DNA of 37,603 nucleotides from a virus. The position numbers were made by a program, and so were the translations under genes. The stretch spans positions 1 to 37,603 of IMG/VR virus record IMGVR_UViG_3300047321_000489. One strand, given 5' to 3'. Positions 3,303 through 19,985 of this stretch are shown one piece after another; the stretch's first letter is position 1; each line of letters begins with the position of its first letter. A model generated the notes under the pieces. That model was not told the DNA's origin, made no database searches, and saw only the letters and a program-made list of their open reading frames with translations.

Positions 3303-3500
3303 ATGACGCCGATGATCGGGCTCCTGCTCCAGGCGGTGATCGTCCTCGTGATCCTCGGCGTCGTGCTCTATCTCCTCGAGACGTACGTGCCGATCAGCCC
3401 GCCGATCCAGATCGTGATCCGCCTGCTCGTCGTGCTGATGGTCGCGCTCTGGTTGCTGCGGCTGTTCGGGCTCGCCGGGCCGCTGCCCACCCTGCGCTGA
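3303..3500 (+). CDS. Two-helix small membrane protein, holin candidate
   Basis: 65 aa. Two clear transmembrane segments: residues about 4-26 (Ile-Gly-Leu-Leu-Leu-Gln-Ala-Val-Ile-Val-Leu-Val-Ile-Leu and on) and about 36-57 (Gln-Ile-Val-Ile-Arg-Leu-Leu-Val-Val-Leu-Met-Val-Ala-Leu-Trp). They are joined by a Pro-rich turn. Size and topology fit a class II-like holin or the small membrane proteins common in phage late operons. It starts 3 bp after the upstream stop and is the last rightward gene before the convergent lysogeny operon, whose last stop lies 7 bp away. No endolysin partner of a standard family was found, so holin function is an inference. Confidence 0.6.
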   Translation: MTPMIGLLLQAVIVLVILGVVLYLLETYVPISPPIQIVIRLLVVLMVALWLLRLFGLAGPLPTLR

Positions 3501-3507
3501 CCGTGGC

Positions 3508-3882
3508 TCACCCGACGAACTCGGGCGGTGGGGTGGGGATCGTTGCCGTGAGGGGCCGCCACCAATGCAACGTGTAGGGATGTAGGTTCACGTAGTCCGC
3601 TTCTTTGGGATACAGCTGCATCACGACATCGTCGGCGTCCCAGAACGTGCGTTTGATAAACGCCATCTCTTTCCACGCCGGCGTGCGTTGCTGCCTGCCC
3701 TCTGTGCGAAAGGCGTGAACGCTGACGTGTTCCCAGTCCCCTTGATCGCTGGCGACGATGGCGAGTTCCCATCCCGGTTCGGGTGAGGGCAAGCGAAAAC
3801 AGCCGTTATTGCCGTCGGCGGCCGACGAAGCCCAGTCGCGTGGGGCGTCCGTCCAACGGGCGTCTTCCGGTACGTGAAACAT
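3508..3882 (-). CDS. DUF7694-like phage protein
   Basis: 124 aa from the ATG at 3882. The C-terminal half has the signature of a small domain widespread in phages and prophages: Trp-Glu-His-Val-Ser-Val, then Thr-Pro-Ala-Trp-Lys-Glu-Met, Phe-Trp-Asp-Ala-Asp-Asp-Val-Val-Met-Gln-Leu, Asp-Tyr-Val-Asn-Leu-His-Pro, and a final Leu-His-Trp-Trp-Arg-Pro. I know it as DUF7694; no function is established. It is the last gene of the leftward operon that begins with the repressor, so it is probably made in lysogens. An accessory role in the prophage state is possible. Confidence 0.8.
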   Translation of the reverse strand: MFHVPEDARWTDAPRDWASSAADGNNGCFRLPSPEPGWELAIVASDQGDWEHVSVHAFRTEGRQQRTPAWKEMAFIKRTFWDADDVVMQLYPKEADYVNLHPYTLHWWRPLTATIPTPPPEFVG

Positions 3883-3887
3883 TCGGC

Positions 3888-4087
3888 TTACTCCCCAATT
3901 TCCATCCGCGCCGGCGTGGTCGTCCAGGCGAGCACGCGCTCGCGGGTGCCCCAGGCCACGGCGGGCGCGTAGTCCTCGAGGAAACCGATCAACGCCGGCA
4001 ACGCGCGTTGCCCGCTGCCGCCGCGCCCAGCATGAACGGATCCCCGTGCTCATCGAAGCCGATATCGTCGTCCGTCTTGCGACTCAT
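3888..4087 (-). pseudogene. Small gene apparently broken by a frameshift
   Basis: Reading leftward from the ATG at 4087 (overlapping the stop of the gene above it) gives a plausible acidic start, Met-Ser-Arg-Lys-Thr-Asp-Asp-Asp, through Pro-Phe-Met-Leu-Gly. It then runs into a stop after 32 residues. Another frame, opening at about 4035, continues with protein-like sequence (Leu-Pro-Ala-Leu-Ile-Gly-Phe-Leu-Glu-Asp-Tyr-Ala-Pro-Ala-Val) to a TAA at 3888-3890, just before the next gene. The second frame has no ATG. The two parts together would give one protein of about 66 residues, with one base missing or two extra in a GC-rich run near 4015-4030. Mutation or sequencing error are both possible. 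Confidence 0.55.
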
Positions 4088-4317
4088 GACGTCGGCTCGC
4101 CGGCGTCGTCGTCGCGCGCCCGCAGCGCGGCGTTGATCGCCTTGTCCACATGCTCCACCGTCAGACTCAAAAACCGATTGAGCTTCACGATGTCCTCCTC
4201 CACCGCAATCAACGACTCCACGGCGGCCCGAGCCATCCGCCCCGTGTCGCGCAGGTAATTTGCCGTCTCGGCCAACTCCTTCAATACGTCCGTGATCGGG
4301 TCATCCTGACGACTCAT
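4084..4317 (-). CDS. Small helical protein, lysogeny operon
   Basis: 77 aa from the ATG at 4317, almost entirely predicted helix with heptad-like hydrophobic spacing (Leu-Lys-Glu-Leu-Ala-Glu-Thr near residue 12, Ala-Val-Glu-Ser-Leu-Ile-Ala-Val-Glu-Glu near 33). The C-terminus is acidic. No family recognised. It overlaps both neighbours by 4 bp, so translation is coupled. A longer upstream extension in the same frame looks non-coding because it runs over the next gene. It may pair with the equally small helical product at 4314-4523. Confidence 0.65.
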   Translation of the reverse strand: MSRQDDPITDVLKELAETANYLRDTGRMARAAVESLIAVEEDIVKLNRFLSLTVEHVDKAINAALRARDDDAGEPTS

Positions 4318-4523
4318 GGCGTGGCCTCCGGCGGCGGCGCCGCCAACGACTCGAATGTGCGGTCGAACGCCCGCTGCACGAGCTCGCGCATCCGAGCCCG
4401 GAACGCTGGGTCTTTCAGGATTTCCTGCGCCATCTGTTCGGCGATTTTCTCCGTCGTGCGGCTCAGCGTCGCGACGACGGAGACGTTGACTTGTTGCGTG
4501 ATCAACGATTCCAAGAGGGTCAT
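4314..4523 (-). CDS. Small helical protein, lysogeny operon
   Basis: 69 aa from the ATG at 4523. A GGAGG nine bases upstream supports this start over a GTG six bases earlier, which would be too close. The product is mostly amphipathic helix (Ile-Ala-Glu-Gln-Met-Ala-Gln-Glu-Ile-Leu-Lys-Asp-Pro-Ala-Phe) with a Pro-rich tail. No family recognised. The 4-bp overlap with the next gene and similar size suggest the two products act together. Confidence 0.65.
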   Translation of the reverse strand: MTLLESLITQQVNVSVVATLSRTTEKIAEQMAQEILKDPAFRARMRELVQRAFDRTFESLAAPPPEATP

Positions 4524-4544
4524 CTGCACAATCCTCCAACACGG

Positions 4545-4928
4545 TCAGTCGACGGCGACTGTCTGCTCATTGGTTTTTGGTTTCGATCGCGCAGCTGATT
4601 CTACTCGTGGCTCGATATGAGTCCCCCGAGCCCAGGCGGCTAACATCTGTTTCACGGCCGCGCGGACGCCAGGCGGCGCCGCGGCAAAATTCCGCAGCAG
4701 CCGCCGTTGCCCGACGGTCAACGGTGGCGGACCGTTCACGCCGAGCACGATAATTGCGACGAGTCGAATGACGTCGTCGATCGTCGCCTTGCCGGCGCCT
4801 TTTAAGTATTTGTTCAGCCAGCCCTGACTGCGGCCAATTCGCTGCGCGATCTCTTTTTGATTCGGCCTGAGGGCGTGCAGATGCTTTCGAATGGCGGCGT
4901 CGATGGGATGACTCGTGCTGGTAGGCAT
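4545..4928 (-). CDS. HTH (XRE-like) DNA-binding protein
   Basis: 127 aa. Residues about 8-60 form a helix-turn-helix of the XRE type: Gln-Lys-Glu-Ile-Ala-Gln-Arg-Ile-Gly-Arg-Ser-Gln-Gly-Trp-Leu-Asn-Lys-Tyr-Leu, then Ala-Thr-Ile-Asp-Asp-Val-Ile-Arg-Leu. The remainder, about 70 residues, is basic and Ala-rich and not recognised. The ATG at 4928 overlaps the TAA of the gene above (TAATG). It is a second regulator inside the leftward operon headed by the main repressor, so it may tune lysogeny, replication or a host promoter. Its target is unknown. Confidence 0.75.
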   Translation of the reverse strand: MPTSTSHPIDAAIRKHLHALRPNQKEIAQRIGRSQGWLNKYLKGAGKATIDDVIRLVAIIVLGVNGPPPLTVGQRRLLRNFAAAPPGVRAAVKQMLAAWARGTHIEPRVESAARSKPKTNEQTVAVD

Positions 4929-5251
4929 TAGGCAAGCGGCTCATCGTCCTCGATATCGCGCAGGGGACTTCCGGCGCGATGGCGACGCTGGTGATCGAGT
5001 TGCTCGGTCAAGGCTTCGACAAGCCGGAGATCGTCCTCGCCGAAGCGCTCGAGCCGTGCCGCGATTTGCTGGCGCACGTCGTCCGTGACGATCGTGTGCG
5101 CGCTCCGTTCGATGGCGATCACGACCGCCGGCCGGGTCTGCAGCAACAGGTCAATGAGCGCAATCAGCCGCTCGGCGCAGGTGCGCGCCTCCTGATCATT
5201 GGGCCGCGACGGCGCAGACACCGGATTACGAGGCCACCGATAGATCCCCAT
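4928..5251 (-). CDS. Hypothetical protein, lysogeny operon
   Basis: 107 aa, mainly helical, with a central hydrophobic amphipathic helix (Leu-Ile-Ala-Leu-Ile-Asp-Leu-Leu-Leu-Gln-Thr) and an acidic C-terminus. No family recognised. GGAG sits about 4 bases before the ATG at 5251. The start lies inside the 3' end of the preceding gene (26-bp overlap), as expected for a compact polycistronic message. Confidence 0.6.
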   Translation of the reverse strand: MGIYRWPRNPVSAPSRPNDQEARTCAERLIALIDLLLQTRPAVVIAIERSAHTIVTDDVRQQIAARLERFGEDDLRLVEALTEQLDHQRRHRAGSPLRDIEDDEPLA

Positions 5252-5561
5252 GGATCTCCACGAGCATCTCCATCAAGCAGCGATGGGTGCGCGCCTCTGG
5301 TGTGTGATCGTTGCCCGCCCCGTGGTGGGGGGGATCCGCCGGCGCGTGGTCACCGCCCTCGTTGTCGGGTGGGGGCATGAAGTCGTCGATGCTCCGTTCG
5401 ATCAAGATGGCGGCGTCCGGATTGCGCTCGCCGAGCATCGGCAGCTTGTGCATCGATCGCTGCACGCTGGCCTGCACGTCGGATCGTAACGTGGCTTTGG
5501 CCGGCTTGGGCTCTGGGATGGTGGCCCAGCGGTGGAACGCGACGAGGCGGCCGGTCAGCAT
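5226..5561 (-). CDS. Hypothetical protein, first gene after the repressor
   Basis: 111 aa. GGAGGG eight bases before the ATG at 5561 is a strong ribosome-binding site. The N-terminal third is basic and the middle has Asn-Pro-Asp-Ala-Ala-Ile-Leu-Ile-Glu-Arg-Ser. A Pro/His-rich linker (about 62-90) separates this from a last helix, Arg-Cys-Leu-Met-Glu-Met-Leu-Val-Glu-Ile. No family recognised. Expression with the repressor makes a lysogen-specific job such as immunity or host modification possible, but nothing in the sequence shows it. Confidence 0.6.
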   Translation of the reverse strand: MLTGRLVAFHRWATIPEPKPAKATLRSDVQASVQRSMHKLPMLGERNPDAAILIERSIDDFMPPPDNEGGDHAPADPPHHGAGNDHTPEARTHRCLMEMLVEIHGDLSVAS

Positions 5562-5588
5562 TGTGCAACCCTCCAGAGTCGATGTGCC

Positions 5589-6059
5589 TTACCGATTGTT
5601 GCGCTGCTTCTTCTGGTCGTCGGCGAACTGGGCCTGCTCCTGCATCGTCAAGGATTGCAAGATCGTTTCTTGGCGATGCGCCGTCAGCCGCTCGAACCGA
5701 TCGAGCAGTGCCAACCCGCTATCGTTCTGGTGCGTGAGCAGCAGACGCTCGATGCGCAGCCGCGTGGGGGTGGATGCCCGCGTGTAGGCTTGCGCGATTT
5801 CCAACGCTTCGTCGGGTAAGCCCACGATGCGCGGATCATCGGCGCTGATCGGCTCGTCCAGACGCTCTAACATCGCCGGGGTGGTGCCCAGGGCGTCGAC
5901 GATCCGGAGGTACTGGGGGCGCCGCGTCTCCATGCTCCCCGTTTCGAGGCCGCGGATCGTATTCGGCGCCACCTGCGCGAGCTGCGCGAGGGTCTTCTGC
6001 GTCCACTTGCGTTTCTGGCGCAGTGCCCGCACGCGGCCGCCGAGGACGGCTGGGTCCAT
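5589..6059 (-). CDS. XRE-family phage repressor (CI-like)
   Basis: 156 aa from the ATG at 6059. Residues about 5-60 are a classic XRE helix-turn-helix: Val-Arg-Ala-Leu-Arg-Gln-Lys-Arg-Lys-Trp-Thr-Gln-Lys-Thr-Leu-Ala-Gln-Leu, with Ala-Pro-Asn-Thr-Ile-Arg-Gly-Leu-Glu-Thr-Gly in the recognition helix region. The C-terminal part is helical, with no LexA/S24 peptidase motif, so RecA-stimulated self-cleavage like lambda CI is not expected. In-frame upstream starts exist up to 6149, but none has a better ribosome-binding site. It is divergent from a Cro-like gene and heads the leftward operon, the standard repressor position. Confidence 0.85.
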   Translation of the reverse strand: MDPAVLGGRVRALRQKRKWTQKTLAQLAQVAPNTIRGLETGSMETRRPQYLRIVDALGTTPAMLERLDEPISADDPRIVGLPDEALEIAQAYTRASTPTRLRIERLLLTHQNDSGLALLDRFERLTAHRQETILQSLTMQEQAQFADDQKKQRNNR

Positions 6060-6216
6060 GCCGCTATACTTCAGCGCGGTCGATTCAGATGCAATGGTAA
6101 GTCTGAGCATGCGCAACGAGTTACGCTGTAAACGCGACCTACGATACAATACAGGTTGACAAAACGCAAATGGCTGCGCTAGTGTTGCGCTGCATAGTTA
6201 AGCGAGAAACGCAACT
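6060..6216. promoter_or_regulatory. Divergent lysis/lysogeny control region
   Basis: 157 bp between the two XRE genes. Rightward, TTGACA (6156-6161) is followed after 18 bp by TAGTGT (6180-6185), a plausible though weak promoter. Leftward, TTGCGT and TATCGT read on the minus strand give a candidate pair near 6144-6169. Repeated TTGCG/CGCAA half-sites are visible at 6112-6117, 6164-6169, 6184-6189 and 6210-6215. GTTGCG at 6184-6189 and CGCAAC at 6210-6215 form an inverted pair. A second inverted pair, ATAGTT (6194-6199) and AACTAT (6213-6218), runs into the start codon of the Cro-like gene. These are likely operator elements. Confidence 0.6.
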
Positions 6217-6444
6217 ATGGAACTCAAAAAATACCGGCGGATCGCAGGACTGACGCAAGGCGCGCTCGCCAAAAAATCCGGCGTCGACGTGACGCTGATT
6301 TCGCGCCTCGAGCGCGGCGAACGGCGGACGGCCTCGTATGAAAGCATCGTGCGCCTGGCGCGTGCGCTGAATCTCGAGCCAGAGGAACTCAGTCCGGTGA
6401 CCTTTCACAAGGAGGAGCGGCGTGACACAACGGGCCTCGCGTAA
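6217..6444 (+). CDS. Cro-like XRE regulator
   Basis: 75 aa, one complete XRE helix-turn-helix: Tyr-Arg-Arg-Ile-Ala-Gly-Leu-Thr-Gln-Gly-Ala-Leu-Ala-Lys-Lys-Ser-Gly at about 6-22, then Thr-Leu-Ile-Ser-Arg-Leu-Glu-Arg-Gly-Glu-Arg. Size and divergent position opposite the repressor fit a Cro-type protein that shuts off repressor synthesis. There is no good Shine-Dalgarno sequence before the ATG, and an inverted repeat overlaps the start, so it may be autoregulated. The end overlaps the next gene by 23 bp. Confidence 0.8.
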   Translation: MELKKYRRIAGLTQGALAKKSGVDVTLISRLERGERRTASYESIVRLARALNLEPEELSPVTFHKEERRDTTGLA

Positions 6445-6709: not shown

Positions 6710-7986
6710 GCATCCGAAAAAAATGCGGGCAGGCGTCGTGGGGCTGTTGTCCGTATGGCGATCATCGCTGTGATCATTCGTGGATCAGTGAAGTCATGAT
6801 CGATCGGGTGCGGCGGTCGCCCGTCAGCATCGATGACTACGCGATCCATCGCGGCGCGACGGTGCCGCACATCGTGACGAAGCGGGACGCGCTGCTGTGG
6901 GAGGCGCGGATCATCATGGACTGGAAGGCTGGACTCGACCCGACCCGCGCGCCTGGCGCGGCACAGGCCAATGCGCAGGCTGACGCCTCCAGTATTGCGG
7001 GGACGCTGGAAGATTACGCCGCCGTCGAAGTCCCGAAACTGCGCGTACAGGCGACGGCCGTGAGCGAGATCCGGCATCTCTCGGCCTACTTCGGCGCCCG
7101 GCCGCTCGTCGAGCTCGAGCGCGAAGCAACGGGCCTCGAGTTCATGTCCGCGCTGCGCGAGGGCTGGCGTCCCCCGCACCTGAAGACCGGCGAGCCGCAG
7201 GAACCGCTCGAGGACGGCCGCGGGCCGGCCGCGGTCAATCGGCTGATGCAGCAGCTCCGGCATTTCATCAACTGGTGTCGGTTCCAGCAGCCGCCCCGGT
7301 TGATGCGCACACCGTTCCATCGCTACGGCATCCAGATCAAGGCGGGCGATGAAGTGCAGCGGACGCGCCGCCTGCAGGAGGGCGAAGAGGCGGCGCTGCT
7401 GGCGGCCTGTGATGTCTTGGACTCCGCCGATCACAAGTACAGCGGCCGGGCGCTCAAGCGGCGGCTGCTCGGGACGCTCTGGCTCGGGGCACGGGGCAGC
7501 GAGCTCGATCGCGTGCTGCTCGCGGACGTCAACTTCAAGACGTGGGACGTCACGCTCAAACGCGGCAAGAGCGCGCCGCGGACGGTGTGGCTCGCGGAGG
7601 AGAGCCCCTTGCGGCCGCTGCTCGAGCAACGGCGGTTCTTGAAGCCGGACGAGTACGTCTTCGGCGACGACGAAGGGCACCTGTACAACTGCCGCAGCGC
7701 GTGGGAAACGGTCGTGCTCCTCGCGCATGGGAAGATCCAGCCGGACGGTGCCGGGCGCACCTCGGAGCAGGCGGCGATCGACTTTGCCGCGATCAATCTC
7801 CATCTCCATGATCTGCGGCGGGAGTGTGCCTCGCGCTGGTGGGAACAGCGGATCGATCTGCTGAAGATCTCGCGCTGGTTGGGGCATGCGGACTTCCGGA
7901 TGACGCAGCGCTACCTCCAACTGACCGACCAGCATTTCGGCGGCCGGGACATGGAGGAGACGTTGACCGGGAGGCGGCGCCCGTGA
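6706..7986 (+). CDS. int: Tyrosine-family integrase
   Basis: 426 aa from the ATG at 6706. The catalytic set is visible: Arg263 (Gly-Ala-Arg-Gly-Ser-Glu-Leu), Lys288 (Arg-Gly-Lys), His368-Asp-Leu-Arg371, His394 (Trp-Leu-Gly-His), and the nucleophile Tyr403, nine residues after His394 as usual. The SAM-like core-binding domain lies at about 100-215. The N-terminus has a Cys/His-rich stretch (Cys7, Cys14, Cys15, His19, Cys22, His24), possibly a small metal-binding arm-site domain. The attP core and repeat arms follow immediately, the usual int-attP order. It catalyses integration into, and with Xis excision from, the host tRNA-Phe gene. Confidence 0.95.
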   Translation: MSIRKKCGQASWGCCPYGDHRCDHSWISEVMIDRVRRSPVSIDDYAIHRGATVPHIVTKRDALLWEARIIMDWKAGLDPTRAPGAAQANAQADASSIAGTLEDYAAVEVPKLRVQATAVSEIRHLSAYFGARPLVELEREATGLEFMSALREGWRPPHLKTGEPQEPLEDGRGPAAVNRLMQQLRHFINWCRFQQPPRLMRTPFHRYGIQIKAGDEVQRTRRLQEGEEAALLAACDVLDSADHKYSGRALKRRLLGTLWLGARGSELDRVLLADVNFKTWDVTLKRGKSAPRTVWLAEESPLRPLLEQRRFLKPDEYVFGDDEGHLYNCRSAWETVVLLAHGKIQPDGAGRTSEQAAIDFAAINLHLHDLRRECASRWWEQRIDLLKISRWLGHADFRMTQRYLQLTDQHFGGRDMEETLTGRRRP

Positions 7987-8006
7987 TTACGCCGAAATTA
8001 CGCCGG
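7986..8006 (+). repeat. Integrase arm-type repeats, left pair
   Basis: Two copies of an ATTACGCCG-based motif: 7986-7994 (one mismatch at its right end) and AATTACGCCGG at 7996-8006. The first starts inside the integrase stop codon. The same 11-mer is found at 8092-8124 and 8366-8376, flanking the attP core, so these are probably integrase arm-binding sites. Confidence 0.7.
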
Positions 8007-8091
8007 TCGGGCGCCAGCCCCGCGGAGGCCGGCGACTGGTTGCCGCGTGGCGGACGCCGGCCTGAGGGCGGACGGGCGAGGACTCCGATCC

Positions 8092-8124
8092 AATTACGCC
8101 GGAATTACGCCGGAATTACGCCGG
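8092..8124 (+). repeat. Three tandem 11-bp integrase arm sites
   Basis: AATTACGCCGG occurs three times head to tail at 8092-8102, 8103-8113 and 8114-8124, one helical turn apart. With the pair at 7986-8006 this makes five sites on the integrase side of the core. The AT-rich 5' part stands out in GC-rich DNA. Confidence 0.75.
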
Positions 8125-8196
8125 TAAGCGATTTTCTCGCAAAAGGCCAGAGCCATCGCGTCGCCGCAAGTGCTTGGCTTGTAAGGGGTTGGAGTG

Positions 8197-8241
8197 GGTG
8201 GCGAGGGGCGGAATCGAACCGTCGACACTACGATTTTCAGT
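8197..8241 (-). other. attP: attP core, 3' half of tRNA-Phe(GAA)
   Basis: Read on the minus strand these 45 bases fit tRNA geometry from position 31 to the first two Cs of CCA. They contain the anticodon loop CTGAAAA with GAA anticodon, 3' anticodon stem TCGTA, variable loop GTGTC, T stem GACGG, T loop TTCGATT, T stem CCGCC with one A-C mismatch, acceptor strand CCTCGCC, and discriminator A. The next base is C rather than the A of CCA. There is no 5' half, so this is not a tRNA gene. Integration here would rebuild the 3' end of the host tRNA-Phe gene. Confidence 0.9.
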
Positions 8242-8396
8242 GGGGTAGACCCCGTTTCCCTGAGTGGCCCTGCCTAAGCTCTGCTAGTGATTTCCTAGGA
8301 AAACCATCGATTGGCACGGCAGGGCTAGCCGGGGCTAGTCTGGGTTCTCGATTCTTTTTGGATTTAATTACGCCGGCAGCTCATCCACGATGTGGG
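8242..8396. other. Right arm of attP region
   Basis: No gene seen. It holds a small GGGG-TAGA-CCCC hairpin at 8242-8253, two GGGCTAG copies 10 bp apart (8322-8328, 8332-8338), and a single integrase arm-type AATTACGCCGG at 8366-8376. The GGGCTAG pair could be excisionase or host-factor sites; this is speculative. Confidence 0.5.
8366..8376 (+). repeat. Integrase arm-type repeat, right arm
   Basis: One exact AATTACGCCGG copy on the far side of the core. Direct repeats on both sides of the core, more on one side than the other, are typical of tyrosine-integrase attP sites. Confidence 0.7.
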
Positions 8397-8615
8397 CTAC
8401 GGCTTGGCCTTGCGCGCGGCCTTCCGCGCGGCGGCGGACGCCTGGCCGGCCTTCTTGGCGCGCGCCGTTCGTTCGGCGGGGGTCATGCGCTCCAGCGACA
8501 TCTTGCCGCCGATCTTGCCGCCTTTGGCGCCCTGCTTCCGAAAATAGGCCGCCACGTCCGGCGGCAGGTCTTTCCGAAAATAGGCCGCCACGTTCGGCGG
8601 CAGTTTTTTGGCCAT
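8397..8615 (-). CDS. Small basic KGG-type protein
   Basis: 72 aa, very rich in Lys, Ala and Arg. The middle, Lys-Gln-Gly-Ala-Lys-Gly-Gly-Lys-Ile-Gly-Gly-Lys, followed by Met-Thr-Pro-Ala-Glu-Arg-Thr and an Ala/Lys-rich tail, matches a family of small basic proteins I recall from GC-rich soil bacteria, with unknown function. The segment Leu-Pro-Pro-(Asn/Asp)-Val-Ala-Ala-Tyr-Phe-Arg-Lys occurs twice in tandem at the N-terminus. It lies alone on the minus strand beyond attP, divergent from the early promoter. The base composition of the protein suggests nucleic-acid binding. Confidence 0.65.
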   Translation of the reverse strand: MAKKLPPNVAAYFRKDLPPDVAAYFRKQGAKGGKIGGKMSLERMTPAERTARAKKAGQASAAARKAARKAKP

Positions 8616-19462: not shown

Positions 19463-19777
19463 CTAACCCGCGACGCCCTTCTTCTCGAGCGCGTCCGCCA
19501 TCCGGATCTTGATCAACGACTGCCGCGTCACGCCGAGGCGTGTCGCTTCGGCGTCAATCGCCTGCAGCATGTCGATCGTGAAATCGACATTGACGCGCTG
19601 CACCTCGCGACCCGGACGCCGCGCCGCGCTCCAATCGATGTGCTCGCTCACGTCTTCGCCGGCGTTGAACTTCGCGTCGAATTCCTCGGTGGTAATAGGT
19701 TTAGTCGCGGGCTTCGTATTGGCGCCGCTCTTGTGCCCTCGCGTGACGGACCGAGATGAGGCGGATGTGGTTTTCAT
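19463..19777 (-). CDS. brnA: BrnA-like antitoxin
   Basis: 104 aa from the ATG at 19777. The C-terminal half has a ribbon-helix-helix pattern: Val-Gln-Arg-Val-Asn-Val-Asp-Phe-Thr-Ile-Asp-Met-Leu-Gln-Ala-Ile-Asp-Ala-Glu-Ala, then Gly-Val-Thr-Arg-Gln-Ser-Leu-Ile-Lys-Ile-Arg. Before it lies Glu-Asp-Val-Ser-Glu-His-Ile-Asp-Trp, the toxin-binding type segment. In BrnTA systems BrnA neutralises BrnT and represses the operon. It overlaps the brnT 3' end by 77 bp, more than usual. Confidence 0.85.
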   Translation of the reverse strand: MKTTSASSRSVTRGHKSGANTKPATKPITTEEFDAKFNAGEDVSEHIDWSAARRPGREVQRVNVDFTIDMLQAIDAEATRLGVTRQSLIKIRMADALEKKGVAG

Positions 19778-19985
19778 GGCGATAGGTGTAGATGGCTGAC
19801 CAAACGGTGTTGTCGATGCGGCCGACTGCGAGATAGCGCAGCTCGCCGAGTGATTTCGCCGGGGCGTCGATGAGGCAAGCCGGGTCATCCCACAAACGGC
19901 GTGCCGCGATGAAGTCGATGCCGTGTTTCCGAAGATTGATCGCTTCCTTGCGCCGGTCATACCCATCGTCAAACACCGGCGTCAT
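19701..19985 (-). CDS. brnT: BrnT-like ribonuclease toxin
   Basis: 94 aa. BrnT pattern: Arg-Arg-Lys-Glu-Ala-Ile-Asn-Leu-Arg-Lys-His-Gly-Ile-Asp-Phe (about 11-25), Ala-Arg-Arg-Leu-Trp-Asp-Asp-Pro, Leu-Arg-Tyr-Leu-Ala-Val-Gly-Arg-Ile, and Ile-Arg-Leu-Ile-Ser-Val-Arg-His-Ala-Arg-Ala-Gln-Glu-Arg-Arg-Gln-Tyr. The family is a RelE-fold RNase that stops translation. The standard order toxin then antitoxin is kept. It sits on the minus strand between terL and portal, so it is a self-contained accessory cassette, perhaps for prophage maintenance or exclusion of other phages. Confidence 0.88.
   Translation of the reverse strand: MTPVFDDGYDRRKEAINLRKHGIDFIAARRLWDDPACLIDAPAKSLGELRYLAVGRIDNTVWSAIYTYRHENHIRLISVRHARAQERRQYEARD

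Follow-up and report, generated by a model that had tools for sequence, protein, structure and literature searches.

A mosaic lysogeny operon with a possible captured repressor of a second immunity type among its cargo genes

An IMG/VR virus record of 37.6 kb, hereafter the window, was analysed; the operon under study occupies positions 3508-6059 of its minus strand. Seven intact open reading frames and one broken frame form a packed row on this strand, headed by the g1 repressor (Table 1). Specifically, the distances from gene to gene along the row are 27 nt, -26, -1 (TAATG), 21, -4 (ATGA), -4 and 5 nt, negative values being overlaps. The end of the row faces a holin-like gene head-on, with 7 bases between them, and on the other flank of g1 lie cro, an excisionase-like gene and an integrase, all rightward. 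A first-pass annotation of this DNA had described eight genes arranged tightly with a repressor: the packing and the common strand stand, while the number eight does not, g7 being a remnant. The second HTH regulator and the DUF7694 protein that it had listed are both present, as g4 (XRE HTH) and g8 (PF24746), respectively. The genes with relatives, namely g1-g5 and g8, have pN/pS ratios of 0.19-0.61 and are thus evolving as coding sequence. We infer that the row is co-transcribed and that it is expressed in lysogens.

Table 1. Genes and regulatory features of the operon and its flank, and blocks of DNA homology shared with other viral records, in window coordinates
Feature	Position	Strand	Remarks
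cro-like gene	6217..6444	+	divergent from the operon; 83-89% identical in L002-L005 and L020
Putative operon promoter, TTGCGT-N17-TATCGT	6141..6169	-	beside GTTGCG operator-like half-sites
g1, resident A-type cI-like repressor, 156 aa	5589..6059	-	HTH_31 domain; divergent from cro
g2, lysogeny-core protein, 111 aa	5226..5561	-	in each relative directly behind the A-type repressor
g3, lysogeny-core protein, 107 aa	4928..5251	-	overlaps g2 by 26 nt
g4, XRE HTH, presumed captured B-type repressor, 127 aa	4545..4928	-	start overlaps g3 stop by 1 nt
g5, two-helix moron-like protein, 69 aa	4314..4523	-	71-78% identity in L021, L022, L024, L032 and L035 (aligned set)
g6, orphan, helical-looking sequence, 77 aa	4084..4317	-	ATGA overlap with g5
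g7, broken gene	3888..4087	-	32-aa N-terminal ORF (3989-4087) and out-of-frame C-terminal fragment (3888-4004)
g8, DUF7694 protein, 124 aa	3508..3882	-	ATG start at 3882; PF24746, E=2.6e-21
Block shared with A phages	6398-4994		
Block shared with B phages	4910-4693		
Block shared with g5 carriers (L024-type records)	4527-4361		
Block shared with L008	4004-3511		

The blocks of DNA homology with other records finish near gene boundaries. By this block structure the locus is a mosaic, in which a conserved lysogeny core is followed by genes from other phages. A lysogeny core with travelling cargo is ordinary in kind; what stands out is a repressor, presumably captured, of a second type (B), as distinct from the resident type (A) of g1. 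In a search for known anti-phage defence, PADLOC returned generic matches only, which are weak and fall in the HTH regions of g1 and g4, and for g2, g3, g5 and g6 neither Pfam, PHROG nor PADLOC gave a convincing match. The phage collection holds no DNA match to the operon and no match for g4, g5 or g6, and for g1 only weak matches in the HTH region. No host was found, because scans of GTDB genomes with the A- and B-repressor alignments as queries confirmed no relative.

In the lysogeny core, DNA homology of 73-74% runs continuously through cro, the switch region, g1, g2 and most of g3, both in L002/L003/L005, which are one sequence over the stretch compared, and in L004. On the evidence of this homology, cro, the operator region, g1, g2 and g3 are the true lysogeny core, kept in sister phages. 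The GTTGCG half-sites of the switch region are retained in the window, L004 and L005, and the TTGCGT-N17-TATCGT element recurs in L004 and L005 without change in either hexamer or in the 17-bp spacing, and in similar form in L020. This element is probably the promoter of the lysogeny operon; a scan for the sigma-70 consensus reported no promoter in the region, this site included. The g1 product carries an HTH_31/HTH_3 domain (Pfam E=2.5e-12), and a LexA-type peptidase domain was looked for in it and not found. It is 71% identical to the repressors of L004 and L005 and 42% identical to that of L020, while g2 reaches 53-59% in L004/L005 and 76% over residues 18-62 in L020. In L004 and L005, g3 sits between g2 and the integrase, and L007 keeps a C-terminal remnant of it; no relationship is detectable between g3 and the repressor C-terminus, or between g3 and g2. 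The order in L020 is cro, the 42% repressor, g2 and then the integrase. The integrases of L005 (9114-10340), L004 (9173-10345) and L020 (5137-6201), all behind the conserved g1-g2(-g3), look mutually unlike, which suggests that the switch stays in place while the integration modules behind it are exchanged. The window integrase lies on the opposite side, behind cro. Just behind it, on the minus strand, positions 8198-8250 resemble the 3' half of a tRNA (ACTGAAAATC...GGTTCGATTCC) and are a probable attP; ARAGORN found no complete tRNA across the window.

Behind the core, the region up to the holin/lysin genes would serve as a cargo slot whose content differs from phage to phage in the group. 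In the window it contains g4-g8, in L005 the integrase only, with a related lysin-like gene beyond, and in L004 the integrase and two unknown genes. L007 has the integrase, a scrap of g3 and a small HTH gene in this place, and L021 the integrase, an att-like tRNA piece, g5 and two more genes. The slot of L008 holds a DUF7694 module and an extra repressor-like gene besides the integrase. In particular, L008 has its own repressor at 3471-4148 and, antisense in the slot, a second, XRE-like gene at 5558-6118 (minus strand), which is 44% identical to the first over 80 aa, HTH included; its start and integrity are unsettled and it misses the Pfam HTH models. Extra repressor-like genes would accordingly be counted in at least two occurrences in the slot among these phages, that of L008 being apparently independent.

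The DNA shared with L008 starts abruptly at 4004, inside a 109-aa gene that is the intact counterpart of g7, and continues through g8 (75% over 494 bp); the C-terminal fragment of the window gene aligns at 64%. Since most of the N-terminal part of the L008 gene is missing, g7 is a deletion product, and its reading as a programmed frameshift was rejected on the same ground. To judge from this homology, g7-g8 is a DUF7694 module common to the window and L008. The g8 protein is a member of the family PF24746 / phrog_7839 (75.7 bits, against a Pfam gathering cut-off of 27), with identities of 82% in L008, 47-53% in L009-L011 and about 44% in Yuavirus phages. The DUF7694 proteins of Yuavirus and other phages are found in settings unlike the window operon: in the Yuavirus LKO4 the gene lies upstream of terminase, whereas g8 stands at the end of a lysogeny operon. 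For the structure model of g8 (pLDDT 78), the best matches in Foldseek (E=0.17) and by VIA (Z 6.8, to the functionally uncharacterised protein 2qzi) are too weak to use, and a literature search with the terms tried found no paper on DUF7694.

The small gene g5 is carried by about a dozen records, several of them copies of one sequence, and its place changes from one to the next. L022 (sense) and L024 (antisense) carry it beside terminase, in the gap between this gene and its neighbour. In L021 it is found past the integrase and a tRNA-like att; in L032 it follows a HicA gene, and in L035 it belongs to a cassette of small genes. Such a variable genomic position between otherwise syntenic genes is that of a moron, and the DNA homology with L024-type records covers just about g5 alone. 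The gene thus behaves like a travelling moron-like gene, and would have moved on its own. Its structure model consists of two helices (pLDDT 84, pTM 0.42). Being small, well conserved and repeatedly moved, the g5 family is a good candidate for a function expressed in lysogens.

The neighbouring g6 has no relative among viral contigs or phages, and because of this its coding status is judged solely from frame composition and packing. The first-pass annotation had considered g5 and g6 as two small helical proteins that might be partners. Both are present, and the data argue at most weakly for a partnership: in L035, the gene next after g5 overlaps it in the same ATGA manner; its 69-aa product has no detectable similarity to g6, and, unlike in the window, most copies of g5 are without such a neighbour. 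The same annotation had raised the prospect of one new defence or exclusion system made up of all eight genes. Tight packing, a shared strand and a weak match of g6 to Pfam HEPN_AbiV (E=0.025; 15.2 bits, below the gathering cut-off of 27.1) would speak for it. It is nevertheless very improbable, as co-occurrence in relatives stops at g1-g2(-g3), g4, g5 and g7-g8 are each found without the others, g7 is broken, and PADLOC gives nothing beyond generic HTH matches. The looser expectation that the genes behind the repressor are lysogen cargo fits better what is found, with g5 resembling a moron and g4 resembling a foreign immunity repressor.

Relatives of g4 are present in three records only (L007, L014 and L015), with 49-56% identity end to end and 68-86% in the HTH. 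In all three they are divergent from a different cro-like gene, that is, in the position of an immunity repressor, and in L007 and L014 the next gene is the integrase; both of these records, possibly incomplete, lack an A-type repressor. Their position suggests that the g4 family is an immunity repressor of a second type, B. A leader block, WTCCAAATGGAAAGAC, conserved around AATAAAAAWTCCAAATGGAAAGAC, is common to the three B phages and is a candidate operator region. Its 16-base core has no copy in the window at up to two mismatches. A perfect palindrome in L007, GACAAACC-GCG-GGTTTGTC, was considered as B operator and set aside, being absent from L014 and L015. In sequence, g4 belongs with the presumed B-type repressors, with full-length homology that includes the HTH; in position, it is the fourth gene of an A-type operon and the conserved leader is absent. 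Because it has neither the position nor the leader of a B-type locus, g4 is called a captured relative and not the immunity locus of the window phage.

The two parts of the protein have diverged to different extents. Of the columns invariant among the three B repressors, the window g4 departs from one of the 21 that lie in the HTH, against 14 of the 31 that lie C-terminally (Fisher p=0.0016, in a small four-sequence comparison whose domain boundary was chosen after the alignment was seen), and each B repressor tested likewise gives p > 0.4. At the same time, synonymous change exceeds nonsynonymous change in g4, with a pN/pS of 0.49-0.56, the same as between B repressors. The C-terminal domain of such repressors is usually devoted to dimerisation and induction.

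A reading to which we give even chances is that the operon is a mosaic in which g4 is a captured heteroimmune repressor of B type, which could protect the lysogen against B phages. According to this proposal, the divergent cro/repressor switch would drive the resident g1 together with g2 and g3, its partners in the core, and g4, taken from a B-type relative without its own leader, would now be read from the resident A operon. In the lysogen, g4 would bind the operators of incoming B phages and shut these phages off; in other words, its expression would provide a second, heteroimmune specificity. From the sequence we infer both the binding to B operators and the protection. In favour of capture, L007 shares its lysin with the window at 73% and keeps a scrap of g3, so that A and B modules do recombine within one group, and L008 has a second XRE-like gene in the same slot. 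Against capture stands the fact that a single phage has g4 behind an A repressor, which amounts to a single capture event, and with its diverged C-terminal domain g4 could have ceased to act as a repressor, having lost for instance the ability to dimerise.

The main rival is that g4 is the scar of a module exchange, in which an A module replaced a B module by recombination and the old repressor was left behind without present function. L007 offers the mirror image, a scrap of the g3 C-terminus behind its integrase. The broken g7 indicates that decay is happening in the cargo slot, and the strong change in the C-terminal domain of g4 agrees with a gene no longer in use. However, the g4 frame is intact, its HTH is strongly constrained, its start codon is fitted to the g3 stop and its pN/pS is like that of the B repressors, so that we regard a scar as unlikely, although by no means negligible. 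Distinctly less likely is the recruitment of g4 as a second regulator of the window phage itself, acting for instance on the cargo, the integrase or the lysis-lysogeny choice. Its place in the operon of the resident repressor and its changed C-terminus, suggestive of a new partner, are compatible with such a role, but the window contains no B-leader-like sequence and the A relatives manage without g4.

Capture of g4 can be set beside known arrangements in which a lysogen expresses accessory genes together with its immunity repressor, as lambda cI-rexA-rexB and CarolAnn 45-44-43; in Gordonia phage CarolAnn, the defence genes 43/44 are co-expressed with repressor 45 (PMC6426606). The window operon would share this mode of expression and differs in that its cargo includes a repressor and not an exclusion pair; neither RexA/RexB nor any other listed defence protein was found in the window operon. 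Cluster A mycobacteriophages display repressor-mediated superinfection immunity, with hetero- and mesotypic specificities (PMC6550527). As in those phages, the immunity type would be a matter of repressor/operator match, and related phages of different types coexist; unlike in that work, where the phage's own repressor is the source of immunity (PMC6550527), the window has a repressor of a second type inside the operon of the first. A literature search with the terms tried found no paper that describes the capture of a second immunity repressor. Should g4 act as the capture reading supposes, a prophage would widen its immunity by adding the repressor of a rival to its own operon. This would be a simple route to defence that defence-gene screens miss, because g4 looks like an ordinary regulator. 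On this reading, g4 should bind the switch of B-type phages and silence it. More tentatively, and with the probability on the low side, captured repressors of heteroimmune sisters might arm the lysogens of this group of temperate phages: operator recognition would be kept and the C-terminal domain rebuilt, so that the induction signals of the donor are ignored and a one-way lock is placed on B phages, the extra gene of L008 being a second case.

Prophage morons are accessory loci expressed in lysogens. The g5 gene, likened to them by its position, is similarly a single gene found in varying places and sometimes antisense to structural genes, as in L024. In L032, an HTH-like gene, a HicA toxin gene (E=1.5e-19), a 70-aa gene and g5 form one row (7374-8201, plus strand). 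The window itself has a BrnT toxin gene (PF04365, E=5.7e-20) with a CopG/BrnA-like gene at 19463-19985 (minus strand), inserted antisense in the gap between terminase and portal, near the g5 slot of L024 and L022. In addition, a small basic protein of the KKGG type is encoded at 8397-8615 (minus strand). It is 67% identical over 43 aa to the product of an L035 gene located two genes upstream of g5 in its cassette, and is possibly another moron.
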